The position numbers and the translations under genes were made by a program. From NCBI GenBank assembly GCA_029210625.1, contig JARGFU010000002.1:163190-227189 (forward strand): a DNA stretch of 64,000 bases. The letters run 5' to 3'. The notes beneath the pieces are model-generated. The model did no database searches and was not told the origin of the DNA. It worked only from the letters and a program-made list of their open reading frames with translations. The stretch's first letter is position 1; each line of letters opens with the position of its first letter. Of this stretch, positions 7,647-56,013 are shown piece by piece. The stretch is from Deltaproteobacteria bacterium. GTDB lineage: Bacteria > Myxococcota > Myxococcia > SLRQ01.

Positions 7647-7728
7647 CTGCCGCAGCGCGGCATTGGAAAAAGGCCAATGAATTCAAAGGCCTGATCCCGG
7701 AGGGTGAGGCCCGATCCGGCCTCGATCC

Positions 7729-7744
7729 TGGCACGAAGGATGCT
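7729..7744 (+). promoter_or_regulatory. sigma-54 (-24/-12) promoter for the PLD-like lipoprotein
   Basis: TGGCACGAAGGATGCT has the invariant GG (7730-7731) and GC (7742-7743) exactly 10 bases apart, and matches the TGGCACG half of the RpoN consensus perfectly. Predicted transcription start is near 7755, 30 bases before the ATG at 7785. This makes any upstream start codon unusable from this promoter. Confidence 0.75.
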
Positions 7745-7784
7745 CATGGGGCTCCCCGAGATGACTCGAAACGGGAGACCCGAG

Positions 7785-24954: not shown

Positions 24955-26745
24955 TCATTCACGCAGGCCCAGGCGGGCGGCGCGGCGTCCGAGGGTGGCC
25001 GGTGAGAGGCCGAGGCTGCGCGCCGCGCGCCGGAGGACACCCCCGCTCTCCTCGAGCGCGAGGCGGATCAGCTCCCGCTCGTGGTTCTCCAGCTGGTCCT
25101 TCAGGGAGCGCGCCTGCGTCCCCTCGCGGCCCTCGCCCCGGTTCGCGATGCGGGCGGGCAGCAGCTCCACGCCGATCACCTCGCCCGGCGGGCAGAGGAG
25201 CACGGCCCGCTCGAGCACGTTCCGCAGCTCCCGGATGTTCCCGGGCCAGGGATAGGAGAGCAGCCGCTCGAGCGCCGCCGCCGAGAGCCCCCCGACGCGG
25301 CGTCCCAGGGCGCTCTGGAAGACGTCCAGGAAGTGGAGGGCGAGCACCTCGATGTCGGTGATCCGCTCGCGGAGCGGCGGGATGTCCACCACGAAGGTGT
25401 TGAGCCGGTAGAAGAGGTCGGCGCGGAAGGTGCCCGCCGCGACCTCGGCAGCCAGGTCGCGGTTGCTCGCCGCGACGATCCGGACGTCGACCTTGTGCAC
25501 CTGGGTGCCACCGATCGGGCGGACGGTGCCCGTCTCGATCACCCGCAAGAGGTTCGCCTGGAGCTTGGGGGTGGTGTTCTCGATCTCGTCGAGGAAGATC
25601 GTGCCACCGTCCGCGAGGACGAAGAGGCCGGGGTGATCGTCGATGGCGCCGGTGAAGGAGCCCTTCACGTGCCCGAAGAGCTCGCTCTCGAGGAGGGTCT
25701 CCGGGAGCGCGCCGCAGTCCTGGACGACCAGCGAGGACATGGCGCGGTCGGAGAGGTCGTGCAGGGTGCGGGCCAGCACCTCCTTGCCGGTCCCGGTCTC
25801 GCCCTGGAGCAGGACGCCCACCTTGTGAGGGGCGACGGCCCGCACCAGGCGGAGCACCTCGACCATCTGCGGGCTGCGGTGGACGACGTTCTCCTCGACC
25901 AGGGCGTCCAGCTTGCTCTCGGGGCGGGCCCGGGCCTGCTCCCGGCGGAGAGCCCGGCCCAGGGCCTGGGCGCTGCGGCGCTGCTCCGTCCGCTCGCCGA
26001 AGTCCTGGCAGCCCCGCAGGACCTCGGTCCGCAGCCGGTGCGGGCTGACCGGGGGGCGCAGGGAGCGGAAGATCTCCCCGGCGTTGAAGTGGGTGACCAG
26101 CGCCGCGGGGTTCATCCCGCCGTAGTGGATGATCCGCACCGCGAGATCGCGCAGGGGGTGGTGCTGATCGAAGCCGCCGGCGGAGCCCCCCGGGAAGGAC
26201 TGCTCCACGACCGCCTCGAGGATCGCCTCGTCGCTGCCGCAGGCGATGATCACCGCGATGTCACCGCGCCCGAGCAGCTCGTGCAGCTCGCCGAGAGAGT
26301 CGGCGAAGTGGAGGGCGACCCGATCCTCGAGTGCCTCCCGGATCAGGGCTTGCTCGGCCCCGAGGGCGAAGACCGCGCAGACGTGGAAGCGGTAGTCCTG
26401 CAGGTAGCGGGAGAGCTCCACCCGGTCCGTGGGGGGGACCCAGGTGAAGCGGATGCCCAGGGAGACGGCGATGTCACCGCCCGTGGGCTCCTCGGTGTCG
26501 TGGCGCCAGGCCACCTCCCCCCGGGCGCGGATCGTGAAGCCGTACTCCGGGAGCGAGAACTCCAGCTCGAGGGACTCGCCCTCGGCGGGCAGGACCTGCC
26601 CCTCCTTGCGGCTCGCGACCAGGCCGATGCCCGAGTCACTCAGGTTCACCGACCAGCAGCCGGGCAGGGTGGGGGTGGAGATCACGGGGACGAAGAGGGG
26701 CAGGCGGGCCTGGCGTTCCTGCTCTTCGTGGGAAAGGCGTTTCAT
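24955..26745 (-). CDS. sigma-54 activator with PilZ and pseudo-receiver domains
   Basis: Bacterial enhancer-binding protein, 596 residues. Residues ~15-110 look like a PilZ domain: NLSDSGIGL gives the Asn-x-Ser-x-x-Gly motif, but a canonical Arg-x3-Arg is not clear, so c-di-GMP binding is uncertain. Residues ~115-270 resemble a receiver fold without a convincing phospho-Asp. The AAA+ domain has Walker A GETGTGKE at 315-322, GSFTGA (variant of the sigma-54-contacting GAFTGA), and FLDEIE. A Fis-type helix-turn-helix (GGVLRRAARSLGLSPATLGR) ends the protein. It is divergent from the nine-gene unit at 26957, whose promoter is of the sigma-54 type, so it is the likely activator. No Shine-Dalgarno site is evident before the ATG. 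Confidence 0.88.
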   Translation of the reverse strand: MKRLSHEEQERQARLPLFVPVISTPTLPGCWSVNLSDSGIGLVASRKEGQVLPAEGESLELEFSLPEYGFTIRARGEVAWRHDTEEPTGGDIAVSLGIRFTWVPPTDRVELSRYLQDYRFHVCAVFALGAEQALIREALEDRVALHFADSLGELHELLGRGDIAVIIACGSDEAILEAVVEQSFPGGSAGGFDQHHPLRDLAVRIIHYGGMNPAALVTHFNAGEIFRSLRPPVSPHRLRTEVLRGCQDFGERTEQRRSAQALGRALRREQARARPESKLDALVEENVVHRSPQMVEVLRLVRAVAPHKVGVLLQGETGTGKEVLARTLHDLSDRAMSSLVVQDCGALPETLLESELFGHVKGSFTGAIDDHPGLFVLADGGTIFLDEIENTTPKLQANLLRVIETGTVRPIGGTQVHKVDVRIVAASNRDLAAEVAAGTFRADLFYRLNTFVVDIPPLRERITDIEVLALHFLDVFQSALGRRVGGLSAAALERLLSYPWPGNIRELRNVLERAVLLCPPGEVIGVELLPARIANRGEGREGTQARSLKDQLENHERELIRLALEESGGVLRRAARSLGLSPATLGRRAARLGLRE

Positions 26746-26885: not shown

Positions 26886-26902
26886 TTGGCAGGGGGAATG
26901 CA
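26886..26902 (+). promoter_or_regulatory. sigma-54 (-24/-12) promoter of the nine-gene unit
   Basis: TTGGCAGGGGGAATGCA has GG at 26888-26889 and GC at 26900-26901, exactly 10 bases apart, with TTGGCA and TGCA matching the RpoN consensus halves. Start of transcription is expected near 26913, about 44 bases before the first gene. The sigma-54 activator gene next door supports use of this site. Confidence 0.72.
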
Positions 26903-26956
26903 GCCCCTCTCCCCCAGTGAGGAAGGGACCGTCCGTCCCCGCCCCGGTAGGACACC

Positions 26957-28492
26957 ATGGAGCACGAACACCCCAGAACCCGGAACCCGGGCCCCGCGCA
27001 GGAGACGGCGAGCGTCGACCTCCTGGTGTTCGGCGGGGGAGCCGAGGCCTCGCTGCTGGCGGCGGCCCTGGCCGCCGAGGGCTGGTCGGTGCTCTTGCTG
27101 GAGCCCCGCGGCACCGCCTCGGCCATCTCCGCCCAGCGCCTGACCGGGCTCGCCGCGCAGACGATCCTCGAGCTCTCCCTGGGGGAGGAGATGGCCAGCC
27201 GCCGCTTTCCCCGGGCCGAGCGGCTGCAGATCTTGGGTCGAAACGCCGAGGAGTGCTTCGAGGTGCCGATGAGCTCGGCCGCCTGGCACGTGCGCAAGGC
27301 CGATCTGGAGCAGGTCCTGCTCCGGCACGCGCTCTCCCGGGGGGTGATCCACCGGCGCGGCCAGGCGCTGCGCCCGCTCACCGAGGGGAGCCGGGTCGTG
27401 GGCCTGGTGTGGGAGCCGGCCAGCGTCGGGCGCGCACCCGAACGGCAGACCCGCTGCAGCACGCTGGTGGACGCGAGCGGCAGCGAGGCCTTCCTCTCCC
27501 GGCAAGCGATCGCCGGTCCCCGCACCTTCGGTGAGGGGCAGCAGCAGGTGCAGGTGCAGGGGCTCTTCCGCGCGGACGGCGTGCAGCCCGGGGTGGCGCG
27601 CCTCTTCCACGACGGCCCCGGGCACTGGGCCAGCTGGACCCCCCTGTCGACGGAGCTCGTCGCCGTGTCGGTGGCCGTGCCCCAGGCGACCTACCAGCGC
27701 TTCGCCCGCACCCCGGCCCAGCTGCTCGCGTGGGGGCTCGAGTCGATCCACCCCGAGCTCCAGCAGGCGCTGGGGAGCGCGGCGCCCGCCGGAGACGTGG
27801 AGCTCGAGCGCCTCGTCCCCTACCGGGTGGAGCCCCGGGCGGGGGAGGGGTGGCTCTGCCTCGGCGCCGCGCACCGGAAGGGTGATCCGGTCCTGGACCT
27901 CGAGCTGCTCCTGGCGATGGCCGAGGCCTCGGATGTGGCGGCGACCCTGCGCGAGGCGCCGACCCGCCGGGTCGGGGAGCAGGTCCTCGAGGGGCTGGTC
28001 GCTCGCGCGGAGGCGGCCTGGCGCACGGCCGCCGAGCTCACGAGCTACTTCTGGCGATCGCCCGGCTTCTTCCGCCAGCTGGTGCAGGGGCGGCTGGGGT
28101 CGCACTTCCTGGATCTGCTGGAGGGGCGCAGCCTGCTGGCTCCCGAGCCGGAGGTGCTGCGAGTGGTGCGCGGGAACCTGACCGCCCGCTCCCTCGAGGG
28201 GGATCCCGACCTGCGCGCCGAGGCCATCGCCCACCGGGTGCGGACCCGCTGCTCCGGGGACCGGGAGGTCGAGGCCGCCTTCCTCGAGCTCGGGGAGAAC
28301 GGGGCGCTGCTCTCCCTGATCGTCGGGGAGGGCGCGCAGGAGAACCTGCTCCACGACTTCGAGGAGTCGCTCTACGCCGAGTTCGGACGCGAGTTCCTGG
28401 TGGTTCTGCGCTGGTCCGCCGCTGAGGGCGGCGCCCTCTCCGCCCCCGACTTCCCCGGCGCCCGGCGGATCTTCGACCGGAGGGCCTCCTGA
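26957..28492 (+). CDS. FAD-dependent oxidoreductase, halogenase/geranylgeranyl-reductase-like
   Basis: 511-residue flavoprotein of the large FAD/NAD(P)-binding family. LLVFGGGAEASLLAAALA with GWSVLLLEPRG is the dinucleotide-binding fold at residues ~23-55; HVRKADLEQVLLRHA near 115 and TLVDASGSEAFLSR near 170 are typical of flavin-dependent halogenases, hydroxylases and geranylgeranyl reductases. Where halogenases have GWxWxIP, this protein has GHWASWTPL, and the active-site Lys was not identified, so halogenation is not supported. The Gly pattern is slightly off the usual GxGxxG. It opens the nine-gene unit, 55 bases after the sigma-54 promoter, and its stop overlaps the next start (TGATG). 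Oxidation or reduction of a lipid or acyl substrate is a guess from the neighbours. Confidence 0.75.
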   Translation: MEHEHPRTRNPGPAQETASVDLLVFGGGAEASLLAAALAAEGWSVLLLEPRGTASAISAQRLTGLAAQTILELSLGEEMASRRFPRAERLQILGRNAEECFEVPMSSAAWHVRKADLEQVLLRHALSRGVIHRRGQALRPLTEGSRVVGLVWEPASVGRAPERQTRCSTLVDASGSEAFLSRQAIAGPRTFGEGQQQVQVQGLFRADGVQPGVARLFHDGPGHWASWTPLSTELVAVSVAVPQATYQRFARTPAQLLAWGLESIHPELQQALGSAAPAGDVELERLVPYRVEPRAGEGWLCLGAAHRKGDPVLDLELLLAMAEASDVAATLREAPTRRVGEQVLEGLVARAEAAWRTAAELTSYFWRSPGFFRQLVQGRLGSHFLDLLEGRSLLAPEPEVLRVVRGNLTARSLEGDPDLRAEAIAHRVRTRCSGDREVEAAFLELGENGALLSLIVGEGAQENLLHDFEESLYAEFGREFLVVLRWSAAEGGALSAPDFPGARRIFDRRAS

Positions 28493-29571
28493 TGGTCTCC
28501 CGCCGCTACGCCCTCCAGGGGATCGGTGCGGTCACCGGGCAGCACGTCCACGAGCAGGCCGCCCTGGCCCGCTCCCTGGGGGCCGACCTCGCCCCCGCGG
28601 CGCGAAACCTCGTCAAGCAGGTCTTCGAGGCTTCCGGAGTGCGAGAGCGCCACCTCGAGCTCCCCCGGGACCTCGCGGCGAAGGAGCGCGGCAGCCTCGC
28701 CGAGCTGGTCCAGGCCGGCCGCACCCTCGCCACTCGTGCGCTCTTCGAGGCCCTCGGAGAGGTCGAGCTCGATCCGCGCACCGCGCTGCTCGTCTGCACC
28801 GACGCGCCTCCCTGCCTGCATGCCGGTCTCGCGGCGCACCTCGTCGAGCAGCTGCAGCTGCCCAAGGGCGGTATCGTGCGGGAGCTGCACGAGGCCACCC
28901 TGCGCCCGGGCCTCGTCTTCGGTGCCCGCCTGCTCGAGGCGCGGCTGGCCCGTGACGTCGTGATCGTGGCCCTCTCCACCCGGGGTAGCCTGGTGCTCGG
29001 GGAGCCCCTCCCCGCCGAGGTCACCTTCGACGAGGTCCGCGAGTGCTGCGCCGCCTCGGACGGTGCCGCGGTCCTCCACCTCTCCAGCCTGGGGCGGCCC
29101 GGCGCCCTCCTCCGCTATCAGCGGCTCCGTGATCTCCCTCTCCTGCAGGCGGACGGGGCCTCGCTCTCGCCACCGGCGGCCGCGCCGCGGGGGGAGCGAG
29201 AGGGGCTGCGGCGCTGGCGTGGGGATCTGCGCCGCTGGCTGGAGGAGGACGCGGCCCGGCGGCCCACGCTGCTGGTCTCGGGCGGCATGGCGCTCCCGGC
29301 CCTCCTCGCCGAGCCGGCCGCCGCCGCCGGCTGGGGACCCTTCCTCGCCCTCTCCCGGCAGCTCTACCGGGACCGCGGTGACCTCGGCGTCACCTCGATG
29401 ATCTTCGCGCTCGAGCGCGCCCTCGAGGAGGGCCTCGACTTCTCTCCCGATCTTCGCTTCGTGGCTCTCGAGCCCGGCTCACCCGCGAGCGTCGTGCTCC
29501 TCGGCGGGGTCGAGCTCGAAAAGGACGGGGCGGTCCACGCGGTGGCCGCCCGGAGGATGCAGAACCCATGA
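28492..29571 (+). CDS. thiolase-fold (KAS III/chalcone synthase-like) protein lacking the usual Cys
   Basis: 359 residues. The overall plan follows ketoacyl-ACP synthase III or type III polyketide synthases: SGVRERHLELP near 45, ALLVCTDAPP near 99, and CCAASDGAAVLHLS near 190 (the GDGAxAVVL region). In the segment that should hold the nucleophile, GIVRELHEATLRPGL (residues ~126-140), there is no Cys; Thr136 or a neighbour is in its place. The later His motif is not recognisable, and the Asn loop reads RGDLGVTSM with Asp. It may therefore be a non-condensing partner, a binding protein, or an enzyme with altered chemistry. It is coupled to the flavoprotein gene (1-base overlap) and to the next gene (ATGA). 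Confidence 0.62.
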   Translation: MVSRRYALQGIGAVTGQHVHEQAALARSLGADLAPAARNLVKQVFEASGVRERHLELPRDLAAKERGSLAELVQAGRTLATRALFEALGEVELDPRTALLVCTDAPPCLHAGLAAHLVEQLQLPKGGIVRELHEATLRPGLVFGARLLEARLARDVVIVALSTRGSLVLGEPLPAEVTFDEVRECCAASDGAAVLHLSSLGRPGALLRYQRLRDLPLLQADGASLSPPAAAPRGEREGLRRWRGDLRRWLEEDAARRPTLLVSGGMALPALLAEPAAAAGWGPFLALSRQLYRDRGDLGVTSMIFALERALEEGLDFSPDLRFVALEPGSPASVVLLGGVELEKDGAVHAVAARRMQNP

Positions 29572-29939
29572 ACCAATTCAGGCTCGACGAGCTGGTGATC
29601 GAGGCCCGCCCCCTCAAGATGGAGGGCAAGCTGCGAGTGGACTGGAGGGGCAAGAGCAGCGCGAGGGAGCCGACCCGGGTGCTCCTGCCCTTCTTCGAGA
29701 GCGTCGCTCGCGACGCCGCCGCGTCGAAGGCGTCGATGGAGATGCACTTCGAGGGCATCGAGCACTTCAACTCCTCGACCATCACCGCGATCATCCACCT
29801 CATCCAGCTCATGAGGAAGCAGGGCACGCCGCTGGTGCTCATCTACGATCCCGAGCAGAAGTGGCAGCGCCTCTCCTTCGAGGCCCTCCGGGTCTTCGAG
29901 AAGGGAGACGGCCTCCTGCGGATCGAGACGGTGAGCTGA
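29568..29939 (+). CDS. SiaC/STAS-like phospho-acceptor protein, copy 1
   Basis: 123 residues. The core MHFEGIEHFNSSTITAIIHLI matches the plan of SiaC-type (DUF1987) and STAS anti-anti-sigma proteins, in which a Ser/Thr next to the conserved Asn is phosphorylated by a HATPase partner and dephosphorylated by a PP2C phosphatase. Here the candidate residues are in FNSST (about 67-71), followed by LVLIYDPEQKWQRLSFEAL. Both partner types are encoded directly downstream. It overlaps the gene before (ATGA) and after (TGATG). The downstream target of this switch is unknown. Family assignment rests on pattern only. Confidence 0.65.
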   Translation: MNQFRLDELVIEARPLKMEGKLRVDWRGKSSAREPTRVLLPFFESVARDAAASKASMEMHFEGIEHFNSSTITAIIHLIQLMRKQGTPLVLIYDPEQKWQRLSFEALRVFEKGDGLLRIETVS

Positions 29940-30436
29940 TGGCCTTCATCAACTTCCAGATCCAGGTACCGATCACCTCGAGCTGGTCGCACATCGAGCT
30001 GCTGCGCTCCTCGGTGCTCAACTGCCTGGCCACGATCTTCAGCGACAACGAGTTCTGTCACTCGGTGGGGATGATCACCAGCGAGCTGCTGGAGAACGCC
30101 GTCAAGTACGGGGACTGGAACTCGCTGGAGCGGGCCGAGTTCCAGCTCCACGTGGCCGGGGACGAGACCCAGGTCGAAGTCACCGTCTCGAACCCCGTGC
30201 GTGAGGGCGGCAGCGAGGTCGAGCAGCTCTTCCGGACCGTGGACTTCATCCGCTCCCAGGAGAGCGCCGAGTCGGCCTACCGGTCACGCCTCTCGGAAGT
30301 GGCCCGGGGGCAGAGCAACGGCGTGAGCCGCCTCGGGCTGGCGCGCGTCGCCTACGAGGGGCACTGCGAAGTGAAGGCCCGCATCGACGACCGCTCCATT
30401 CTCCACGTCACCGCCATCTCCACCTCTCGCAGATGA
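29939..30436 (+). CDS. HATPase-type serine/threonine kinase, partner-switch (SiaB/RsbW-like)
   Basis: 165 residues. [16 protein letters not shown] is the N-box of GHKL ATPases (Glu-x3-Asn) and [14 protein letters not shown] sits where the Gly-rich lid is found. The protein is small and lacks a phospho-accepting His domain, as in RsbW, SpoIIAB and SiaB kinases that phosphorylate a STAS or SiaC partner. It is placed between two such partner genes. The start at 29939 follows GGAGACGG... within the upstream gene and overlaps its stop by one base; the end overlaps the next gene by ATGA. It could also be a pure binding protein if the lid is inactive. Confidence 0.7.
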
Positions 30437-30855
30437 GCGCCAGCCGACAGGACGCCGGCGCGAGCGCGGGCAGGAGCGAGCGGCCGGCCAGCCTCGTCTC
30501 GAGCAGCTACACCCTGCGCCTCGACGAGGCCGAGGGCGGCTGGCTGACCTCCAGCTGGCTCGGAAGGATCGGCGATCGTCACCCCTCGGTCTCCATCCAG
30601 CCCTACCTCGAGAGCTTGATGGACCACGCCTTCGAGGGCGGCCTGGGGCTCCACTTCAGGCTCGAGGAGCTGCAGCACTTCAACTCGTCCACCATCGCGG
30701 TGCTCGTCCGGCTGATCCACCGGATCCCGGAACGCCAGGGGAAGCTCCGCATCACCTTCGACCCCGACAAGAGCTGGCAGCAGATGTGCTGCGATGTCCT
30801 CGCCCGCTTCGAGGCGAGCGTGCCGGGGCTCGAGGTCCGGGAGATCCGTTCATGA
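30433..30855 (+). CDS. SiaC/STAS-like phospho-acceptor protein, copy 2
   Basis: 140 residues, paralogue of the protein at 29568: [19 protein letters not shown] and [12 protein letters not shown] align with its core, including the FNSST phospho-acceptor candidate. It has an N-terminal extension of ~25 polar residues that the first copy lacks. Two paralogues on either side of one kinase suggest two outputs, or one output and one decoy, for the same switch. Translationally coupled on both sides by ATGA overlaps. Confidence 0.65.
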
Positions 30856-32225
30856 GCGACGCGCGCACCCAGAACGTTGGCTCGATGCGGCTGGCCGACG
30901 GCTACCAGCACGCCTTGAAGGCCGCGGACATCCTCTTCGGCGGCTTCATGTTCCTGATGGTGGGGCTGGCCGGGATCGGTGTCCATCAGGGCGTCGCGCC
31001 GGTCACCGACCTCATCCTCATCCTGGGCTTCCTGGTGGTGAACATCGTCGTGGGGGAGGTGGGGCGCCGCCTCGATCGTCCCTTCCTCATGGAGGGCGTT
31101 CGGGTCTGCGTGGGCGGCGGGACGGCGCTGGCCGCCTACCTGATGGTCGCCGGTCCGCTGGGTCCCTGGTGGCCCGGCTTCGTCATCCTCTCGCTCGGCG
31201 GCTCCATCGGCTTCGGCCTGCTCACCCAGAAGCCCCACGGCGGCAGGGCCGTGGTCGCCGTCTACTTCTTCGCCTACCTCTTCGCCTCGATCGCGATGCA
31301 GTCGCCCATCGACTGGTACCAGATCGGCATCGAGGGCGGCCTGATCGCCATGCTCGGCCTGATGTTCGCCGAGATCATGTCCCTGCTCGGCCAGACCCTG
31401 CAGCAGGAGCACGAGCGCAGCCTCGATCTCCAGGCCGCCCGGGACGCCCTCTTCGCCGAGGTCGAGGTCGCCCAGGCGATCCAGACCCTGCTCCTGCCCC
31501 GGGATCCGAAGATCCCCGAGCACGAGGTCGCCGGCCGGATGGTCACCGCCACCGAGGTCGGGGGCGACTACTACGACGTCATCGACACGAGCAGCGGCCG
31601 CAGCCTGGTCGCCATCGGGGACGTCTCCGGGCACGGGGTGACCTCCGGGCTGACGATGATGATGGCGCGCACGAGCCTGGTGGGAGCGGTCGAGGCCATC
31701 CCCGACGCGCCGATCCCCGTCCTCTACCGGGTGCTCAACCGCTGCATCCGCCAGAACCTGGCCCGGATGAACCTCTCCATGTACATGACCTTCGCTCTGC
31801 TCGAGCACCACGGACGAGGCCGCTTCACGGCGGTCGGCCGGCACCTGCCGCTCTACATCTACCGCCGGGCGAGCGAGGCCATCGAGGAGATCGAGCTCTC
31901 GGGAATGTGGCTGGGCATCCTCGACGATCTCGAGCCCGATCAGCTCCAGGAGACCCACTTCGAGCTCGCCCCGGGCGATCTCCTCTTCCTCTTCACCGAC
32001 GGCATCGTGGAGCAGTTCGTCGGCGAGGAGATGTTCGGCTACGACCGGCTCCGGGAGCTCGTCCGCCAGCACGGCGCGGCGGGCTCCAGCCAGGTCATCG
32101 ACGAGGTGCTCGGCGGCCTGCGGGCCTTCTCCTCCGAGCAGGAAGACGACGTCACCATGCTCGTGGTGACGCATACCGGTGACGTTCAGCAGGCGATGGC
32201 CCTGAGCAACGGCGCAGCGGCCTGA
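30852..32225 (+). CDS. membrane PP2C-type (SpoIIE/RsbU) phosphatase
   Basis: 457 residues. Six hydrophobic helices lie between residues ~28 and ~190 (for example ILFGGFMFLMVGLAGIGV and FVILSLGGSIGFGLL), then a short linker helix (QQEHERSLDLQAARDALFAEVE) and a SpoIIE-type domain with VGGDYYDV, GDVSGHG, FTDGIVEQF and EDDVTMLVV, so the metal-binding Asp residues are present. Expected role: dephosphorylate one or both SiaC/STAS-like proteins encoded just upstream in response to a membrane or lipid signal. The start at 30852 overlaps the previous stop (ATGA). A 24-base gap with AAGGAGG follows, the only non-overlapping junction in the unit. Confidence 0.88.
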   Translation: MSDARTQNVGSMRLADGYQHALKAADILFGGFMFLMVGLAGIGVHQGVAPVTDLILILGFLVVNIVVGEVGRRLDRPFLMEGVRVCVGGGTALAAYLMVAGPLGPWWPGFVILSLGGSIGFGLLTQKPHGGRAVVAVYFFAYLFASIAMQSPIDWYQIGIEGGLIAMLGLMFAEIMSLLGQTLQQEHERSLDLQAARDALFAEVEVAQAIQTLLLPRDPKIPEHEVAGRMVTATEVGGDYYDVIDTSSGRSLVAIGDVSGHGVTSGLTMMMARTSLVGAVEAIPDAPIPVLYRVLNRCIRQNLARMNLSMYMTFALLEHHGRGRFTAVGRHLPLYIYRRASEAIEEIELSGMWLGILDDLEPDQLQETHFELAPGDLLFLFTDGIVEQFVGEEMFGYDRLRELVRQHGAAGSSQVIDEVLGGLRAFSSEQEDDVTMLVVTHTGDVQQAMALSNGAAA

Positions 32226-32249
32226 CGATACACCCCAAGGAGGTCGACC

Positions 32250-32798
32250 ATGAGAACCCGAGGAACTCGATACGGACTGAAGCTCGCGCACGTCGCGCCG
32301 CTCCTGCTCGGTGGGCTCCTGATCCTGCCGCTGCCCGCCCTGGCGGACGACGATGGGGCGGGGTGCCGGCCGGTCTCCGGCCGCTACACCGCCAACCCTC
32401 TACCTCCCTCGTCCTGCTTCTCGCCGGTCGGCTTCTGCACGGCCGGTACCCTCACCGGGGGGCTCCACGGGAGCTACACCTTCACGATGAGCAGCGCCCG
32501 ATCCGCGGAGGAGCCCACGGCGCCGGGGATGACCTTCTACACCGGGGTGAGCCTGGTGGAGGCGCTGGGAGGCTCGCTGGTGGGGACCGACACCGGGACC
32601 GTCGATCTCTCCCCCGTGGGCACGGGCCGGCAGGCGGCGCTGATCACCCTCACCGGCGGCGCGGAAGGGCTCGAGGGAACCACCGGCTACCTGACCCTGG
32701 TCGGGGAGCTGAGCCTGATGACCGGCGAGGTGCAGGGCCGCTACAGCGGCGAGCTCTGTGGTCCCGCGATCCAGGACCGTCACAGCGGGAGGCGATGA
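32250..32798 (+). CDS. small exported protein of unknown function
   Basis: 182 residues with a signal peptide (LLLGGLLILPLPALA) and a mature domain of ~150 residues rich in beta-strand and Gly: FCTAGTLTGGLHGSYTFTM, then ALITLTGGAEGLEGTTGYLTLVGEL. The pattern resembles small lipocalin- or allene-oxide-cyclase-like barrels, but no signature settles it. Four Cys residues could pair. An excellent AAGGAGG precedes the ATG by 8 bases. It ends overlapping the PilZ protein gene (ATGA), so it belongs to the nine-gene unit and is its only clearly exported soluble product. Confidence 0.7.
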   Translation: MRTRGTRYGLKLAHVAPLLLGGLLILPLPALADDDGAGCRPVSGRYTANPLPPSSCFSPVGFCTAGTLTGGLHGSYTFTMSSARSAEEPTAPGMTFYTGVSLVEALGGSLVGTDTGTVDLSPVGTGRQAALITLTGGAEGLEGTTGYLTLVGELSLMTGEVQGRYSGELCGPAIQDRHSGRR

Positions 32799-34873
32799 GC
32801 AGGCTGCTCGATCTCTGGGCCCCGGCCATCCCCGCGCGGCGGCCGGTGGGATACCGGCTCCCGGCCCTGCAGGGCGCCGTGCGGGTCCTCGACTGGCGGG
32901 AGGGCCTCCGCCTCGTCCGGCTCTCGCCGGTGGATCTGACCTGCCGCTTGCCGGGGACGCTGCCCGTGGTCGCCGGTAAGCTGCACCAGGTCCAGATCGT
33001 CTTCCAGGATCGCGTCCAGGCCACGCTCCAGGGGCTGGTGACGGGGGTGCGGGTCGATCCGGAGAGCGGCCAGCAGGAGGTCGACCTGAGCTTCACGCCG
33101 CTCACCCTCGAGGCGGGGCGCCGGATCCTGGCGGGGCTGCTGGCTCACCTGGGTGACACCGGCGGGGCGCCGGAGAGCGCGCCCCCGGCCTCCGGCGGGA
33201 TCACCGAGCTGATCCGCGAGGCGCGCCGCATCCGGACCCTGCTGCGGGGCCTGATCGACGAGCGGCCCCGGGGTCGGGTCGTCTCCGAGGACGGCCGGCG
33301 AGGGCAGGTCGCGCTGCTACCCCTCGCCGAGGGCGGCGGGGCGCCCCTGCGCTGGTCGGCCGACGAGGACACCCCCGAGCCCCCCTTCCAGCTGGAGCTG
33401 CAGGGCTACAACTCGATCTTTCACGTGCAGGTGAGGACGGCCCGGCGGGAGGGGGGACACTTCCTCGCGCCCTTGCCGACGATGATCGTCCGGCGCCGCA
33501 ACCGCCTCCACCGGAGAGTCGAGGTCGACGCCGGCGAGGTGAGTCTGCGTCACCCGGTCTGGCCCGGGCACTCGGTCCGGGGGCGCATCGTCGATCTCTC
33601 CCACGAGGGGCTGGCCTTCGAGGCCGACCCGGTGGAGGACGTCCTCTATCCGGGCCTCGTCCTGCCCCGGCTGGAGGTGGCGCTGCCGGGGGAGCCACCG
33701 ATCACCTGCTCCGCGCAGGTCCGCCACCTCCTCCCCGCCGGTGAGGCGCAGGCCGGGCGCTGTGGCCTCTGGCTCTCCCCGAGCTCGCCCGTCGATCGGG
33801 AGCGATGGATCGCCGCCCTCGCGCGGCGCCTCTACCCGGGCTCGGAGGTGGCCCGAGATCGAGCCGGTGAGCTGTGGGAGGTGTTCCGGGACTCCGGCTA
33901 CTTCGGGCTCTCCGATCAGCGCGAGGCCCACTTCGTCCAGCTGCGAGAGAGCTTCACGCACTTCTGCCACAAGCTCGGCCGGGCCCCGGGGGTGGGCTAC
34001 CAGGTGGTCCACCGCTTCGACGGAGTCGCCCGGGGAACCGTCACCATGGTCAAGCCCTACGCCGGCACCTGGGTGGGCTATCAGCTGGCGAGGAGGGACG
34101 TCAGCGGTGACGACGCGCGCCAGGCGCGGCGGGTGCTGCGCGAGGTCGTCCTCCATGGCTACGAGCACGCGATGACCGATCCGGGCTTCCGGTGGTTCGT
34201 CACCTGGATCCAGACCGAGGGCCGCTTCTCCCGCCTGCTGATGAACGATCTGACCCGGCGCTACACCCACGACCGGGACCGGGCCTGCCTGCTTCGCTTC
34301 CGGGCCTTCCAGGCCGCCTGTGACGAGGGCGAGCCGCGCTTCGAGGTGGGGCCGGAGGTCTCGGAGGCGACGCCCTGGGAGCTGCAGGAGCTGCTCTCGG
34401 CGCTCGCCCGGATCCGGCCGAGGCCCTACCTCGAGGCCCACGACCTGGTCGCCGGCCGACTCGAGCTCGGGGAGGCGTCGGCCCGCTGGGGCGCCGCGAG
34501 GCTTCAGCGCGAGCGGGCGATCCTGATCGCTCGTCGGCAAGGCCTCCCCCGGGCGGCGGCGGTGCTCGAGGTGGTCGAGGCCGGCGCTCACCTCTTCGGG
34601 CTCTTCGATCTGGTGCGCCTCTTTCCTCTCATCGAAGGGGGCGAGCGACACTTCCAGGAGCTGCTCCAGGCGGCCCGGGACTGGTATCGGATCCGGGGGA
34701 AGCACCGCTTCACCTACTTCTGCGAGACCCGGGAGACCGCCCACGCCACCGAGCTCGGGATGAAGGATCTGGGGGAGGCCGATCTCACGGTCCTCTCGGC
34801 CGAGCTGATGCCCGAGCAGCTGGAGCACGCCTGGGAGGTCACCTTCAGCCCACCCCTGGAGGTGAAGCCATGA
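32795..34873 (+). CDS. PilZ-domain protein with possible GNAT/FeeM-like domain
   Basis: 692 residues. The N-terminal ~110 residues are beta-rich and PilZ-like or PilZN-like (GAVRVLDWREGLRLVRL). A clear PilZ domain starts near 231 with RRRNRLHRRVEV and GRIVDLSHEGLAFEAD, that is Arg-x3-Arg and Asp-x-Ser-x-x-Gly, the c-di-GMP-binding signature. From ~370 to ~520 the strand-helix pattern (VVHRFDGVARGTVTMV, WVGYQLARR, then GRFSRLLMNDL) recalls GNAT N-acyltransferases such as FeeM-type N-acyl amino acid synthases; this is tentative. The last ~170 residues are unassigned. It may be a c-di-GMP-controlled acyltransferase. Coupled by ATGA overlaps on both sides. Confidence 0.68.
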   Translation: MSRLLDLWAPAIPARRPVGYRLPALQGAVRVLDWREGLRLVRLSPVDLTCRLPGTLPVVAGKLHQVQIVFQDRVQATLQGLVTGVRVDPESGQQEVDLSFTPLTLEAGRRILAGLLAHLGDTGGAPESAPPASGGITELIREARRIRTLLRGLIDERPRGRVVSEDGRRGQVALLPLAEGGGAPLRWSADEDTPEPPFQLELQGYNSIFHVQVRTARREGGHFLAPLPTMIVRRRNRLHRRVEVDAGEVSLRHPVWPGHSVRGRIVDLSHEGLAFEADPVEDVLYPGLVLPRLEVALPGEPPITCSAQVRHLLPAGEAQAGRCGLWLSPSSPVDRERWIAALARRLYPGSEVARDRAGELWEVFRDSGYFGLSDQREAHFVQLRESFTHFCHKLGRAPGVGYQVVHRFDGVARGTVTMVKPYAGTWVGYQLARRDVSGDDARQARRVLREVVLHGYEHAMTDPGFRWFVTWIQTEGRFSRLLMNDLTRRYTHDRDRACLLRFRAFQAACDEGEPRFEVGPEVSEATPWELQELLSALARIRPRPYLEAHDLVAGRLELGEASARWGAARLQRERAILIARRQGLPRAAAVLEVVEAGAHLFGLFDLVRLFPLIEGGERHFQELLQAARDWYRIRGKHRFTYFCETRETAHATELGMKDLGEADLTVLSAELMPEQLEHAWEVTFSPPLEVKP

Positions 34874-37161
34874 CCCCGCTCCCCCCACTGCGCGACGCTC
34901 CGGCAGAGCCCCGCCCTGGCGCGTGGGCGCCGCTCCGCTTCCCGGCCGACGAGCCGGCGGCGGTCGCCGAGGTGGAGCGCCTCATCGCCGAGCGGCGGGC
35001 GATCTTCGTCCACGACACCCTCGATCTGCAGCTCGCCGAGCTGGTCGACTCCCGCACCCCGGGGCACAAGCTCCAGGGCGCGGAGCTCGCTCGAGCGGTG
35101 GACGCCTTCCTCGAGGGGCGCCCCTCGGTGAGCTACGGCAACTGGTTCTACTACCCCTGGTCCGGCCGCCTGATCCGGGTGCTCCCCGAGGGGCCCTTCC
35201 GGTGGCTGCGGAGCAACCGGAACCGCAACAAGATCACCGAGCCCGAGCAGGCCTCTCTCCGCCTTCGCACCCTCGGGATCGTGGGGCTCTCCGTGGGGAG
35301 CGCCACGGCGATGACCCTCGCCATGGAGGGGGTCGGGGGGACCCTGCGCCTGGCCGACTTCGACTCCCTCGATCTGGGCAACCTGAACCGCCTCCGGGCG
35401 CCCCTGCACGCCCTCGGTGAGAACAAGGCGGTGATCGCCGCCCGGCAGATCGCCGAGCTCGATCCCTACCTGCGGGTGGAGGTCTTCGCCGAGGGCGTGA
35501 CCGAGGCGAACCTCGAGCGCTTCCTGCTCGGCGACGGAGCCGAGGGCTGGCCGCGGCTGGATCTGCTGATCGAGGAGTGCGACGACCTCTACCTGAAGGT
35601 GGCTCTGCGCGAGCGCGCCCGGGCGGCGCAGATCCCGGTGGTGATGGAGACCTCCGACCGGGGGCTGGTCGACATCGAGCGCTTCGATCTCGAGCCGGAG
35701 CGGCCGCTGCTCCACGGGCTGGTCGGCGACCTGAAGGCCGAGTCGCTCCGCGGCCTGACGACCTACGAGAAGGTCCCGATCGTCCTGCAGCTGTTGGGCG
35801 AGGACGCGGTCTCACCGCGCCTGGCCGCCTCGATGGTCGAGATCGACAGCACCCTGAAGACCTGGCCCCAGCTGGCCTCGGCGGTCTCCCTCGGCGCGGC
35901 GCTGGGCACCGACGTGGCGAGGCGCATCCTGCTCGACCAGCTGCGCATCTCCGGCCGCTTCTACGTCGATCTCGAGCAGGCCATCCCGGACTCGCCGGGC
36001 GAGGCCGGGGCGCCTGCCTCGCGACCCGCAGAGCGCGAGGGGGCCGACGCCGCGCCCGCGCGCACTCCCGGGCCGCCGCGGGTCGAGAGCCGGGGAGACC
36101 TCGGGTCGATCCGGTCGCTGGTGGCCTTGGCGGTGCTGGCCCCCTCGGGGGGCAACTGTCAGCCCTGGCGCTTCAGCTGGAACGGCGAGCGGCTGCGCTG
36201 CCACCACGACCGCGCGCGCTCGGCCTCCTTCCTCGACTGGGAGGACAAGGCGGCGCACCTCGCCCTCGGCGCCGCGGTGGAGAACATGATCCTGGGGGCC
36301 GGCGCGCTCGGCCTCGCGCTGAGGGCGGAGCCCTTCCCCCTTCCCGGGGACGCCGCCGTGGTCTGCGACCTCTGGCCCACGGCCTCGCCGGGGGGCCCCG
36401 TCGACGACCCCCTGGCCGCCGCCATCCCCCTGCGCTGCACCAACCGCCGCCTCGGTCCACGAGCGCCCCTCGAGCCGCGGCTGCGAGACGCTCTCTCGTC
36501 CGCCGCCGGCGCGCTCGGGGTCGAGCTCTCCCTCGTGGAGGAGCCCGCCACGCTCGAGCGCCTGGGGCGGCTGCTCGGGAGGGGGGACCGCATCCGCTTC
36601 CTGAACGAGCAGATGCACCGCGAGATGATGAGCGAGATCCGGTGGAGCGAGGAGGAGGCCCGCCGCACCGGCGACGGCATGGACGTCGCCACCCTGGAGC
36701 TGACGCCCACCGATCTGGCCGGCATGAAGCTCACCCGCGGCTGGCGGGTGATGGAGCTGGTGGGCCGGGTGGGGGGCGGGCGAGCGCTGGAGAAGCCGAG
36801 CCGCAAGGCGCTCGCGGCGGCGAGCGCGGCCGGCCTCGTCCGGCTGCCCGGGCGAGGGCCCGGGGAGGCCTTCCTCGGGGGGCGGGCCATGCAGCGGGTC
36901 TGGCTGGCGGCCACCGCGGCGGGCTGGGCCTTCCAGCCGATGACCGCGATCACCTACCTCTTCGAGCGGCTCATCGACGGAGGAGAGGGGCTCTCCCGCA
37001 CGGAGCGCGCCGAGCTCGAGCAGCTCTGGCTGGAGCACCAGGAGATCTTCGGCACCGGCCCCGGGGAGACCCAGGCGATGCTCTTCCGTCTGGCCCGGGC
37101 CGAGCCTCCCACCGAGCGCGCGCTGCGGCGCCCGGTGGAGGAGGTCTTCTCGATCGAGTAG
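34870..37161 (+). CDS. ThiF/E1-like plus nitroreductase fusion (Rv1355c-type)
   Basis: 763 residues. The E1/ThiF/MoeB part (~100-370) has GIVGLSVGSATAMTLAMEGVGG for ATP, LADFDSLDLGNLNR with the adenylation Arg, and EECDDLYLKVALRERAR; no clear zinc Cys pairs or catalytic Cys were found. An Ala/Pro/Arg linker (~375-405) leads to a nitroreductase-like flavin domain (~410-740) starting SLVALAVLAPSGGNCQPWRF. The same two-domain order is known from Mycobacterium tuberculosis Rv1355c, whose function is not established. It overlaps the PilZ gene by ATGA and ends the unit, 7 bases from a convergent gene. Adenylation coupled to flavin oxidation is the chemistry to expect; the substrate is unknown. Confidence 0.82.
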   Translation: MTPLPPLRDAPAEPRPGAWAPLRFPADEPAAVAEVERLIAERRAIFVHDTLDLQLAELVDSRTPGHKLQGAELARAVDAFLEGRPSVSYGNWFYYPWSGRLIRVLPEGPFRWLRSNRNRNKITEPEQASLRLRTLGIVGLSVGSATAMTLAMEGVGGTLRLADFDSLDLGNLNRLRAPLHALGENKAVIAARQIAELDPYLRVEVFAEGVTEANLERFLLGDGAEGWPRLDLLIEECDDLYLKVALRERARAAQIPVVMETSDRGLVDIERFDLEPERPLLHGLVGDLKAESLRGLTTYEKVPIVLQLLGEDAVSPRLAASMVEIDSTLKTWPQLASAVSLGAALGTDVARRILLDQLRISGRFYVDLEQAIPDSPGEAGAPASRPAEREGADAAPARTPGPPRVESRGDLGSIRSLVALAVLAPSGGNCQPWRFSWNGERLRCHHDRARSASFLDWEDKAAHLALGAAVENMILGAGALGLALRAEPFPLPGDAAVVCDLWPTASPGGPVDDPLAAAIPLRCTNRRLGPRAPLEPRLRDALSSAAGALGVELSLVEEPATLERLGRLLGRGDRIRFLNEQMHREMMSEIRWSEEEARRTGDGMDVATLELTPTDLAGMKLTRGWRVMELVGRVGGGRALEKPSRKALAAASAAGLVRLPGRGPGEAFLGGRAMQRVWLAATAAGWAFQPMTAITYLFERLIDGGEGLSRTERAELEQLWLEHQEIFGTGPGETQAMLFRLARAEPPTERALRRPVEEVFSIE

Positions 37162-40040: not shown

Positions 40041-40069
40041 TTGCCAATAAGTTTCTTGGTGGTCATAAT
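40041..40069 (+). promoter_or_regulatory. sigma-70-type promoter of hipBA
   Basis: TTGCCA (40041-40046), a 17-base spacer and CATAAT (40064-40069), each one mismatch from consensus, lie in an AT-rich patch unlike the surrounding GC-rich DNA. Transcription would start within a few bases of the hipB ATG at 40080, giving an almost leaderless message. Confidence 0.75.
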
Positions 40070-40077
40070 ACTGACCA
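40060..40077. promoter_or_regulatory. hipB operator dyad over the -10 element
   Basis: TGGTCA (40060-40065) and TGACCA (40072-40077) are perfect inverted repeats around TAATAC. The dyad covers the -10 hexamer of hipBA and ends 2 bases before the hipB start, as expected for autorepression by HipB. Confidence 0.7.
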
Positions 40078-40079
40078 TC

Positions 40080-40439
40080 ATGCCCCGAAAAAGCGCTACC
40101 CCTTACCCCGCTGTCCGCCGCTTCCTCGCGGAGCTGGGTGAGAACCTCCGTCTGGCCCGGCTGCGTCGTGGCTTCTCGATGGAGCTGGTCGCCCGGCGGG
40201 CCGGGATGTCCCGGGTCACCTTGCGCGCGGTGGAGCGGGGTGAGCCGGCGGTGACGCTCGGCTCCTACGCCAACGTCCTCCACGTGCTCGGGTTGCACGA
40301 AGATCTGGGTCTTCTGGCCCGGGACGATCTCCTCGGGCGCAAGCTCCAGGATGCGGGGCTCCCGACCCGGCGACGGGCCCCGAGACGCTCGAAGGGCGGG
40401 TCCGACTCCGAGGCAGGCACCCCGGAGGAGAGCGAGTGA
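40080..40439 (+). CDS. hipB: HipB-like antitoxin/transcriptional regulator
   Basis: 119 residues. An XRE/Cro-type helix-turn-helix spans ~12-70: LGENLRLARLRRGFSMELVARRAGMSRVTLRAVERG. The C-terminal ~45 residues are Arg/Lys-rich and then acidic. HipB antitoxins bind a dyad upstream of their operon and sequester HipA. The ATG at 40080 is chosen over an upstream frame start at 40041, which lies within the promoter. The stop overlaps the hipA start (TGATG), so antitoxin and toxin are coupled. Confidence 0.88.
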   Translation: MPRKSATPYPAVRRFLAELGENLRLARLRRGFSMELVARRAGMSRVTLRAVERGEPAVTLGSYANVLHVLGLHEDLGLLARDDLLGRKLQDAGLPTRRRAPRRSKGGSDSEAGTPEESE

Positions 40440-41722
40440 TGGCCGGGCGCCGCATCATCGAGGTCGTCGCGGACTGGGCTGCGCTGGGGGGGGCGCGGAC
40501 GATGGGGTGGCTCACGGCGACCCCCGCGAGGGGCAAGGAGGTCTTCGCCTTCGAGTACGACGAGGACTGGCTCGGCTCGGCCGCCCGGATCCAGCTCGAT
40601 CCCTCGATGTCGCTCTGGGAGGGTCCGCAGTATGCACCTCGCGATCGAGAGACCTTCGGGGTCTTCCTCGACTCCTCGCCGGACCGCTGGGGTCGGGTGC
40701 TCATGCGCAGAAGGGAGGCCCTGCTCGCCCGGGCCGAGGGGCGCACCGAGCGCAACCTCCTCGAGTCGGACTACCTCCTCGGCGTGCACGACGGGCACCG
40801 CATGGGCGGGCTGCGCTTCCGGGTCGAGGGGCGCTTCCTCGACGACAACGACGAGCTCGCCTCGCCACCCTGGACCTCGCTGCGAGAGCTCGAGCACGCC
40901 AGCCTCCAGCTCGAGCGTGAGGGAGTCGAGGAGGATCCCGACTACGGTCGGTGGCTGAAGATGCTGATCGCGCCCGGCGGCTCCCTCGGTGGTGCCCGCC
41001 CGAAGGCCAGCGTCCGGGACGAGCGTGATCACCTCTGGATCGCCAAGTTCCCCAGCCGCGGAGACGACGAGGACGTGGGGGCCTGGGAGCAGGTGGCCTG
41101 CGACCTGGCCCGGCGGGCCGGCGTCGTCGTGCCCGAGACGCAGCTGCGCCGCTTCGGCTCCGGGAGGGGAGAGGACCGGGGGCATCACACCTTCCTGAGC
41201 CGGCGCTTCGACCGGGTCGGCGTCGGCCGCCTCCACTTCGCCTCGGCCATGACCCTGCTCGGCCGGATCGATGGGCAAGGCGCCGGCGAGGGGGTGAGCT
41301 ACCTGGAGCTGGCGGAGCTGCTCATGCGCCTGGGGTCCCGGACGGGAGAGGATCTCGAGCAGCTCTGGCGGCGCATCGTCTTCTCGATCTGCATCTCGAA
41401 CACCGACGACCACCTGCGCGACCACGGCTTCCTGCTCGAAGCGGAGGGGTGGGCGCTCTCCCCGGCCTACGACCTCAACCCGGATCCCGCAGGTGAGGGT
41501 CTGCAGCTCAACGTCTCGGAGTCCGACAACCGCCAGGACCTCGAGCTCGCGCTCTCGGTGGCGGAGGTGTTCCGGCTGAAGCACGAGCGTGCGCGGGAGA
41601 TCGTCGACGAGGTGGTGGCGGCCGTGCGGACCTGGCGGGAGGTGGCGGCCGGTCACGGCCTCTCGCGGGCCAGGCAAGATCGGATGCGGCGGGCCTTCCG
41701 GAAGGCCGTCGGGGGCGACTAA
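40439..41722 (+). CDS. hipA: HipA-like serine/threonine kinase toxin
   Basis: 427 residues. HipA kinases phosphorylate targets such as glutamyl-tRNA synthetase and slow growth. N-terminal region with FGVFLDSSPDRWGR and DYLLGVHDGHRMGGLRF; GGARPKASV near 182 is the Gly-rich loop with the regulatory Ser region; the catalytic loop reads SNTDDHLRDHGFLL near 321; YDLNPDP is the metal-binding Asp. In the catalytic loop the position of the usual metal-binding Asn is Asp, which could alter activity. Start at ATG 40439 after GGAGGAG; a GTG one codon earlier is possible. Partner hipB overlaps by one base. Confidence 0.88.
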   Translation: MAGRRIIEVVADWAALGGARTMGWLTATPARGKEVFAFEYDEDWLGSAARIQLDPSMSLWEGPQYAPRDRETFGVFLDSSPDRWGRVLMRRREALLARAEGRTERNLLESDYLLGVHDGHRMGGLRFRVEGRFLDDNDELASPPWTSLRELEHASLQLEREGVEEDPDYGRWLKMLIAPGGSLGGARPKASVRDERDHLWIAKFPSRGDDEDVGAWEQVACDLARRAGVVVPETQLRRFGSGRGEDRGHHTFLSRRFDRVGVGRLHFASAMTLLGRIDGQGAGEGVSYLELAELLMRLGSRTGEDLEQLWRRIVFSICISNTDDHLRDHGFLLEAEGWALSPAYDLNPDPAGEGLQLNVSESDNRQDLELALSVAEVFRLKHERAREIVDEVVAAVRTWREVAAGHGLSRARQDRMRRAFRKAVGGD

Positions 41723-55488: not shown

Positions 55489-56013
55489 CTAGTTACACAG
55501 GGAGTCGTCCCGGGCACCCTCTTCGATGTTGACCGGGGTCTCACAGTCGAAGTCGGAGGCGCTGCCCACGTCCGCCGGATCGATCATCCGGCCGCACATC
55601 GGCACCACCAGGGTGGGGAAGTTCTCGGCGCTCGACTGCACGATGAGGGCGATGTTGTCGACGGTGCTGCTCGTGCTGTCGTGGTCGTAGGTGATCCGCA
55701 CCGCCGCGTCGTTGTCCGGGTCGACCGTCGCGGGCTCGGGACCCTCGACGCTGAAGGCGTTGCGGGTGTCCCCGACGATGCAGGTCTGAGTGACCTCCAC
55801 CGGCTCGGTGCCGTAGCTCTGCAGGAGGAGCACCCACGAGCAGGGGGCGTAGCGCCCGCAGCCGGGATCCAGATCCGCGCTGGCCTGCAGCGGGAGGTTG
55901 CCGAAGTTCACCGGCGAGAAGTGGGGGCGGATCAGGGCGCCGCTCTCCTCTCCACCCGGGCCGCAGGCCGTCAGGACGAAGCTCAGCGCAGCGAAGATCG
56001 CGATCCGGTTCAT
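55489..56013 (-). CDS. lipoprotein with one immunoglobulin-like (ASH-type) domain
   Basis: 174 residues, signal ending FVLTAC. The mature domain starts FSPVNFGNLPLQ and continues with TEPVEVTQTCIVGDTRNAFSVE and NFPTLVVPMCGR, the strand pattern of ASH/choice-of-anchor-type beta-sandwiches; five Cys after the lipid-anchor Cys. Its start overlaps the stop of the FHA activator gene (ATGA), so it is the last gene of the minus-strand envelope operon. Confidence 0.72.
   Translation of the reverse strand: MNRIAIFAALSFVLTACGPGGEESGALIRPHFSPVNFGNLPLQASADLDPGCGRYAPCSWVLLLQSYGTEPVEVTQTCIVGDTRNAFSVEGPEPATVDPDNDAAVRITYDHDSTSSTVDNIALIVQSSAENFPTLVVPMCGRMIDPADVGSASDFDCETPVNIEEGARDDSLCN

Follow-up and report, generated by a model that had tools for sequence, protein, structure and literature searches.

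What does a putative nine-gene transcription unit make, and what controls it, when a predicted phospho-switch, a PilZ protein, and several unusual enzymes are encoded side by side? The unit in question (genes g1 to g9, 26957-37161, plus strand) lies in a stretch of 64,000 nucleotides from a Deltaproteobacteria bacterium of the phylum Myxococcota (contig JARGFU010000002.1, positions 163,190 to 227,189), which as a whole is called the window here. An earlier note on this DNA had proposed that the phospho-switch and cyclic di-GMP (c-di-GMP) gate an acyl or lipid product. Our analysis supports this proposal and makes it specific by way of the oxazolone family to which g9 belongs and the predicted acyltransferase half of g8, while the check for a conserved neighborhood gave a split outcome. 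We slightly favor the view that the unit makes an N-acyl-amino-acid oxazolone whose production is switched by the phospho-switch and by c-di-GMP, the product and the target of the gating being what we infer.

The product is suggested by the last gene, g9 (34870-37161, plus strand), which encodes a ThiF cyclase fused to a flavin-dependent oxidase (763 amino acids). Over residues 17-761, i.e., at full length, it matches the NCBIfam model NF005901 ("Rv1355c family protein") with 786.1 bits (cutoff, 476), and by its sequence it is almost certainly a member of this TrzS-type family. The E1-nitroreductase fusion of the earlier note can thus be assigned to a named family. Rv1355c was published in 2025 as TrzS (PMC12856293). 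The purified homolog of Mycobacterium smegmatis catalyzes the ATP-dependent cyclization of N-acyl-tryptophan and then a desaturation with O2 to N-acyl tryptazolone, and TrzA (Rv1356c) is the source of the N-acyl-tryptophan (PMC12856293); a related pathway, TyzACB, leads to tyrazolones (PMC10404671). Asp238 of the ThiF motif of g9 is kept in all eight aligned sequences (g9, five other fusions, and two single ThiF proteins), and Arg574/Arg576 and Gln689 are kept in 6/6 fusions; by spacing on a plasmid-borne homolog, and hence as an inferred mapping, these residues correspond to D217, R540, and Q651 of TrzS. The unit resembles TrzAS (Rv1356c-Rv1355c) in having a full-length family member that keeps the tested residues by position, an adjoining gene for a predicted acyltransferase fold, and c-di-GMP genes nearby, but differs in its candidate acyltransferase, for which a tandem GNAT joined to PilZ barrels is predicted, and in having a partner switch and a sigma-54 promoter-like site as well (PMC12856293). 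TyzACB and OxzAB of Pseudoalteromonas rubra likewise combine an N-acyltransferase, a ThiF cyclase, and an oxidase of the nitroreductase superfamily, but they belong to another subfamily, and switch genes are not mentioned for them in the available part of the source (PMC10404671). An oxazolone-type product of the unit is, in our opinion, probable.

Four genes, all on the plus strand, are predicted to form a working phospho-switch. The STAS-type proteins g3 (slr1659-like; 29568-29939) and g5 (30433-30855) both have FNSST at the STAS phosphorylation position, with NSST as the phosphorylatable part, and they flank g4 (29939-30436), an slr1658-like HATPase with the N-box ELLEN that is presumed to be the switch kinase. 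This is the arrangement of two SiaC/STAS-like proteins around a HATPase that had been noted before, with all matches below the curated cutoffs: g4 (NF047703), g3, and g5 reach 45.9, 24.5, and 23.1 bits, compared to 100 bits for the slr1658/slr1659 superfamily in NCBIfam, and g3 reaches 14.2 bits compared to 24.5 for the SiaC family of Pfam, to which g5 has no match. The fourth gene, g6 (30852-32225), encodes a membrane PP2C phosphatase of the SpoIIE type (PF07228, 119 bits) with a SiaA-like catalytic domain (55 bits with the SiaA model, below the cutoff of that model). Its motifs GGDY, GDVSGHG, TDG, and DDV are intact; of the six-helix PP2C described in the earlier note the PP2C part holds, whereas only four of the six hydrophobic segments are clear and two are weaker.

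A close parallel in function may be SiaABC(D) of Pseudomonas aeruginosa, in which a membrane PP2C, a kinase, and a small phosphoprotein act on an enzyme and not on a sigma factor (PMC7647112, PMC8457831). The unit differs from it in having a pair of STAS-type proteins, in which Ser stands in place of Thr68 of SiaC, in lacking a diguanylate cyclase gene, in its slr1658-like kinase, and in its output, which would be the oxazolone pathway (PMC7647112). Consistent with the second point, a Pfam search of ten window proteins gave no match to GGDEF, the domain of a SiaD-type diguanylate cyclase. The slr1658 and slr1659 models of NCBIfam, which g4, g3, and g5 match below the cutoffs, are regulator models that give no function.

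Switch genes of this type recur beside related cyclases. A TrzS-type cyclase is encoded in 8 of 195 genomes of the phylum, and in six of these eight (from three genera, the window's genome among them) the cyclase has PP2C, HATPase, and STAS-type genes of a switch no more than a few kilobases away; in five of the six, a single GNAT gene stands among the switch genes. The four Anaeromyxobacter-type genomes, which belong to one genus, share the order PP2C, GNAT, HATPase, STAS, with TrzS as the following gene of that strand (in one of them, G139, the contig is cut within PP2C). In the fifth genome, G185, a nucleotide-cyclase gene, PP2C, ThiF, GNAT, HATPase, and STAS follow each other on one strand, and a separate oxidase-type protein is encoded on another contig. 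All three kinds of locus have the cyclase, a gene for an acyltransferase fold (predicted in the window), and the PP2C, HATPase, and STAS genes of the switch. The slr1658 model found 29 places in 22 of the 195 genomes, of which four exceed the cutoff; these four and the place ranked fifth all lie in cyclase loci. In the window's genome g4 is the sole place; the slr1658-type HATPases of the five other switch loci exceed the 100-bit cutoff in four cases, and the proteins of these loci score higher with the slr1658 and slr1659 models than g4, g3, and g5 do. SpoIIE-type matches are sparse in the cyclase genomes (one in G185), and therefore, the chance of finding one within 10 kb is only 0.3 to 1.6% per lineage; at 1.6% each, the probability of at least three of five lineages is 4e-5. 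Co-occurrence of the slr1658-type HATPase with the cyclase has a p value of 2.5e-5 by genome, but the genomes are related.

The single GNAT is strong in 5 of the 195 genomes, all of them with the cyclase; a sixth match, in G064, is partial at 35 bits. It was not found in the window's genome (G000), in G147, or in G193. G000 and G147 have a g8-type gene beside the cyclase, in G147 in convergent orientation, and no single GNAT, which suggests that the g8 type replaces it there. One further candidate for a GNAT locus, L058, came from a contig search with the GNAT alignment and narrow patterns that gave five loci, four of which were already in the set; it was rejected as a partial, chance-like match. 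No support was obtained for orthology of the single GNATs to TrzA: the comparisons were negative, both with the neighbor of a trzS-type gene on a mycobacterial plasmid, a neighbor that looks TrwB-type, and with a Rhodococcus neighbor. Two of these loci hold other genes of note. The adenylate/guanylate cyclase gene of G185 (L051:11506-12696), ahead of PP2C, hints at a cyclic nucleotide input to that locus, and in G193 an MMPL-type transporter gene (L050:2444-4819) adjoins TrzS and is a possible exporter of the product; G193 also has a second, weaker ThiF match (C382).

On what does the switch act? Classical partner switches such as SpoIIAA/AB/E and RsbV/W/U act on sigma factors, and g4 belongs to the same broad HATPase class. 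The switch could therefore control transcription, with g3 to g6 acting on a sigma or anti-sigma factor encoded at another place in the genome and with a regulon that includes the oxazolone genes. Consistent with such an output, a small Xre-type helix-turn-helix (HTH) gene lies between STAS and TrzS, on the strand opposite to them, in all four Anaeromyxobacter-type loci (L046:13244-13522, plus; L047:8573-8779, minus; L048:8741-8983, minus; L053:2293-2730, plus), and in L046, L047, and L048 it is followed by a receiver-domain-like gene. However, Pfam found no sigma or anti-sigma factor among ten window proteins and ten G185 proteins (of the Anaeromyxobacter-type loci only some open reading frames were scanned), the genes that the three kinds of locus share are those of the switch and the two enzymes, and in five genomes the GNAT gene is placed between the switch genes. 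We regard control of transcription as rather unlikely and lean toward the oxazolone pathway as the target of the switch. That the STAS protein acts directly on an enzyme of this pathway is a more tentative suggestion, made by analogy: neither a sigma or anti-sigma factor nor a DNA-binding protein was found to be shared by the window and G185 loci, and the genes that are common to the loci, together with the action of SiaC on SiaD (PMC8457831, PMC7647112), would fit such a step.

The second input, c-di-GMP, and the supply of the N-acyl amino acid may meet in g8 (32795-34873, plus strand). Here, MrkH/YcgR-type barrels (PilZ, 27.3 bits with Pfam) are fused to a predicted tandem GNAT acyltransferase fold of about residues 347-674 (Foldseek and VIA-align; model with a predicted local distance difference test score [pLDDT] of 84 and a predicted template modeling score of 0.81). 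One barrel has the c-di-GMP receptor motifs RxxxR (within 233-241) and DxSxxG (at 267, DLSHEG), and R237, R241, S269, and G272 are invariant across 21 aligned sequences. This agrees with the earlier view of g8 as a PilZ protein with a possible acyltransferase domain, all parts of which are predictions. The top VIA row for the GNAT half is, by its PDB title, an enzyme acting on a free amino acid. Furthermore, g8 overlaps g9, so that a gene for an acyltransferase fold, predicted and without sequence similarity to the GNATs elsewhere, adjoins the cyclase. We see the case for g8 as the acyltransferase of the pathway as evenly balanced.

A relative in architecture, PixB of Myxococcus xanthus, combines a GNAT with two PilZ domains in one protein, binds c-di-GMP, controls motility and development, and is modeled as a c-di-GMP-controlled acyltransferase; g8 differs from it in having one c-di-GMP motif set rather than two and a tandem GNAT fold, and PixB is not described together with oxazolone genes in the available part of the source (PMC8316039). 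By this likeness, g8 might be a biofilm or motility regulator that acetylates a protein or another small molecule under c-di-GMP control, and g9 might serve another pathway or act on another substrate. A search of 145 genomes gave matches to g8 in 70, counting that of the window (in some, e.g., G018, to the PilZ part only), with up to four places per genome and mostly within one family. Nearly all of these genomes are free of the cyclase, and therefore, the usual job of g8 homologs is something else. Other enzyme or switch genes of the unit were found in 0/20 g8 homolog loci examined (L021 to L040, a sample of >150 places listed, from 11 genomes and 13.5 to 20 kb each), one of which (L034) has two generic sigma-54 activators. 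Nevertheless, a PixB-like role of g8 in this unit appears unlikely to us: a g8-type gene adjoins the cyclase in both G000 and G147, which are both readable and have no single GNAT, and the top VIA row is the free-amino-acid enzyme. The g8-like protein of G147 (L049) gives a 57-bit match to g8 and has two c-di-GMP motif sets by pattern.

Do the nine genes belong together at all? Recomputed boundaries give junctions of −1, −4, −1, −4, −4, +24, −4, and −4 bases from g1 to g9, i.e., overlaps at seven of eight, and the sole gap, 24 bases between g6 and g7, holds the ribosome-binding site AAGGAGG (32237-32243, plus strand, read directly). The unit ends at g9, whose 3′ neighbor is convergent and ends 7 bases past it. 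Ahead of g1 lies a −24/−12 (sigma-54) promoter-like site, TGGCAGGGGGAATGCA (26887-26902, plus strand), which matches 10/12 informative positions with the exact GG-N10-GC spacing; its score is reached by 17 of 2,000 dinucleotide shuffles of the 211-base intergenic region, and on both strands of the whole window 4 such sites score as high or higher. It faces the divergent gene g10 (24955-26745, minus strand) for a sigma-54-dependent activator with PilZ (29.7 bits), AAA+ (Sigma54_activat, 210 bits), and Fis-type HTH (HTH_8) domains in Pfam, so that promoter and adjoining activator gene are both present as sequence matches, and g10 is, by its position, the likely regulator of the unit. Its N-terminal PilZ has NxSxxG (NLSDSG), but RxxxR is absent before residue 252. 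The layout reported in the earlier note, nine plus-strand genes behind one −24/−12-like site with short overlaps and a single gap, was thereby confirmed. Between 26700 and 37400, no sigma-70-like site was found, and the terminator scan gave two sites, neither within the unit, with two expected by chance; a looser −24/−12 pattern gave fewer matches than chance, and the intergenic region had no inverted repeat at the settings used. Elsewhere in the window, the top −24/−12 match (11/12; 7729-7744) lies 25 bases inside a predicted gene (7704-9557), which may mean a later true start or chance, a second sigma-54 activator-type gene is located at 56010-57701 (minus strand), and a HipA-like kinase gene behind a short overlapping gene at 40041-41722 has the layout of a HipBA pair.

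Three of the genes, g1, g2, and g7, are harder to place. The PDB sequence nearest to g1 (26957-28492, plus strand; 511 amino acids, including an extra C-terminal part) is 5bva (phmmer, 166 bits), a flavin-dependent halogenase that we take to be Bmp2. Such halogenases have a GxGxxG motif, a WxWxIP motif, a GD motif, and a catalytic Lys. In g1, GGGAEA lacks the last Gly of the first motif, WASWTP and GAAHRKGDP stand where the W and GD motifs are lost, and the Lys of 5bva is aligned to Ala. The flavoprotein of the earlier note is thus halogenase-like, but part of its flavin-binding signature is gone. The one relative found, P0003 (56 to 57% identity), retains GSGPAG but not the Lys or the GD motif, and therefore, part of the motif loss in g1 appears to be recent. 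The second gene, g2 (28492-29571, plus strand; 359 amino acids), is KAS III/thiolase-like by a weak match to DpgA (21 bits; E value, 1e-4) and a weak alignment to a KAS III of a Streptomyces plasmid, encoded by a gene that overlaps one for a GNAT-ThiF fusion (BLASTP E value, 0.19), on which its fold assignment rests, since a single-sequence AlphaFold model was too poor (mean pLDDT, 36.8). In that alignment, Cys and His of the Cys-His-Asn triad are absent and Asn is replaced by Asp, which extends the earlier remark that the usual Cys is missing. As an anchor, g2 found itself alone among the 195 genomes and among 7,996 candidates scored from 5.8e9 proteins in a search limited to shared words. 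PqsB of P. aeruginosa is FabH-like, has also lost all three triad residues, and scaffolds its active partner PqsC (PMC4807248); unlike there, a catalytic KAS III partner was not recognized in the unit. The small protein g7 (32250-32798, plus strand) has an N-terminal signal-type hydrophobic segment, and no match of use was found for it in Pfam, NCBIfam, or the PDB.

None of the other cyclase loci was found to have g1, g2, or g7, and the full nine-gene set was seen in the window only. The co-occurrence check called for in the earlier note was thus answered in two ways: PP2C, slr1658-type HATPase, STAS, and ThiF-type cyclase are close together in six of eight cyclase genomes, but three genes were not found there, and g8 homologs stand alone in 20/20 loci examined. 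This, together with the fact that no relative of g2 was found, could mean that the nine genes share a promoter and not a function. With start/stop overlaps at seven junctions and with the switch genes near the cyclase gene in each of three genera, we find such a loose assembly improbable. Highly improbable is that g9 modifies a peptide or protein (ubiquitin-like chemistry or that of ribosomally synthesized and posttranslationally modified peptides) and not a fatty-acyl amino acid; ThiF/E1 domains commonly activate peptide or protein carboxylates, and the PDB sequence matches of g9 include UBA5 and PaaA, but the 786-bit family match leads to an enzyme tested with N-acyl-tryptophan, and no ubiquitin-like or precursor-peptide gene was recognized among the nine genes, for which no systematic search for short open reading frames was made.

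Several observations weigh against an oxazolone pathway gated by the switch and by g8. In the four Anaeromyxobacter-type genomes, STAS and TrzS are separated by 0.6 to 1.3 kb with one or two genes on the opposite strand, which places the cyclase outside the switch operon. No switch was found in G147 (12 kb read) or G193 (7-kb contig only), or in any of the 7 actinobacterial plasmid cyclase loci that served as a control (12 to 22 kb each, from 13 records found), and by genus the co-occurrence of the slr1658-type HATPase with the cyclase falls to a p value of 0.04 (3/5 genera). Within the window, the switch proteins score below the curated cutoffs of the SiaC, STAS, slr1658, and slr1659 models, and the second STAS gene and the two pseudoenzyme-like genes are without counterpart in the other cyclase loci. 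As for g8, beyond the many homologs without cyclase, Foldseek puts the histidine enzyme only 46th, after other tandem GNATs and PilZ proteins, the structural match to this enzyme is tied by Z, and such a modeled likeness of fold would be no proof of the acyl acceptor. Furthermore, no similarity in sequence could be detected between g8 and the GNATs at other cyclase loci, even by forced alignment, the canonical acetyl-CoA motif Q/RxxGxG was not seen in g8 when read by eye, and Pfam and NCBIfam find nothing, PilZ included, in the g8-like protein of G147, which was placed by its 57-bit match and motif patterns.

The actinobacterial plasmids offer some observations of their own. Two plasmids of Rhodococcus qingshengii (L063:7794-12118 and L064:7808-11956) carry a GGDEF gene at a distance of two genes from that of the Rv1355c family; in M. 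tuberculosis a link of trzAS to c-di-GMP has been noted, to which this observation adds. A Streptomyces plasmid (L066:9155-12069) has a GNAT-ThiF fusion gene, its GNAT part recognized by weak matches that include FeeM, which overlaps a KAS III gene. In another one (L060:6836-8634), a ThiF gene overlaps a GNAT gene with no annotated oxidase alongside, and this pair is a minimal version of the pathway.

In our model of the gated oxazolone pathway, a single sigma-54 promoter, with the divergent PilZ protein as its activator, would drive the unit. Binding of c-di-GMP to the PilZ part would render g8 active, and its tandem GNAT would transfer the acyl group of an acyl-CoA to an amino acid; the resulting N-acyl amino acid would then be cyclized with ATP and desaturated with O2 by g9, in the manner of TrzS, to the oxazolone. 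On a signal, the membrane phosphatase g6 would dephosphorylate g3 and g5, which the HATPase g4 would rephosphorylate, and the free STAS protein would permit or block a pathway enzyme as SiaC does with SiaD. The proteins g1 and g2 may be noncatalytic partners, g2 in the role of PqsB toward PqsC, and g7 may be an envelope protein. A bolder version of the model, which we put forward as speculative, is that the STAS protein and c-di-GMP gate the oxazolone enzymes directly, with the acyltransferase itself as the PilZ receptor, so that a lipid resembling N-acyl homoserine lactones would be made only when the signal at the membrane phosphatase and high c-di-GMP coincide; such a system would have been assembled at least twice in Myxococcota, in one form with a single GNAT and in another with the PilZ-tandem-GNAT protein in its place.

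The earlier note knew of no described system with this set of genes. For the set, this holds within the literature searched, but the enzyme pathway has been described (PMC12856293, PMC10404671). What we did not find in print is the link of a TrzS-type pathway to a partner switch: no publication connecting a partner switch with oxazolones was found in a search that left subscription literature largely outside, and anti-sigma, phosphatase, and STAS do not occur in the part of PMC12479983 available to us.

The physiological role of bacterial oxazolones has been stated to be unresolved (PMC12856293). For this question, concrete inputs that can be tested come from a locus in which an oxazolone-type enzyme is encoded together with a predicted phospho-switch, a receptor of the c-di-GMP type, and a sigma-54 activator, and the related Anaeromyxobacter loci point to organisms in which the product can be measured against the state of the switch. 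If the model is true, a biosynthetic enzyme would join sigma factors and one diguanylate cyclase (SiaD) as targets of partner switching, and a use would be suggested for many PilZ-GNAT proteins of Myxococcota.

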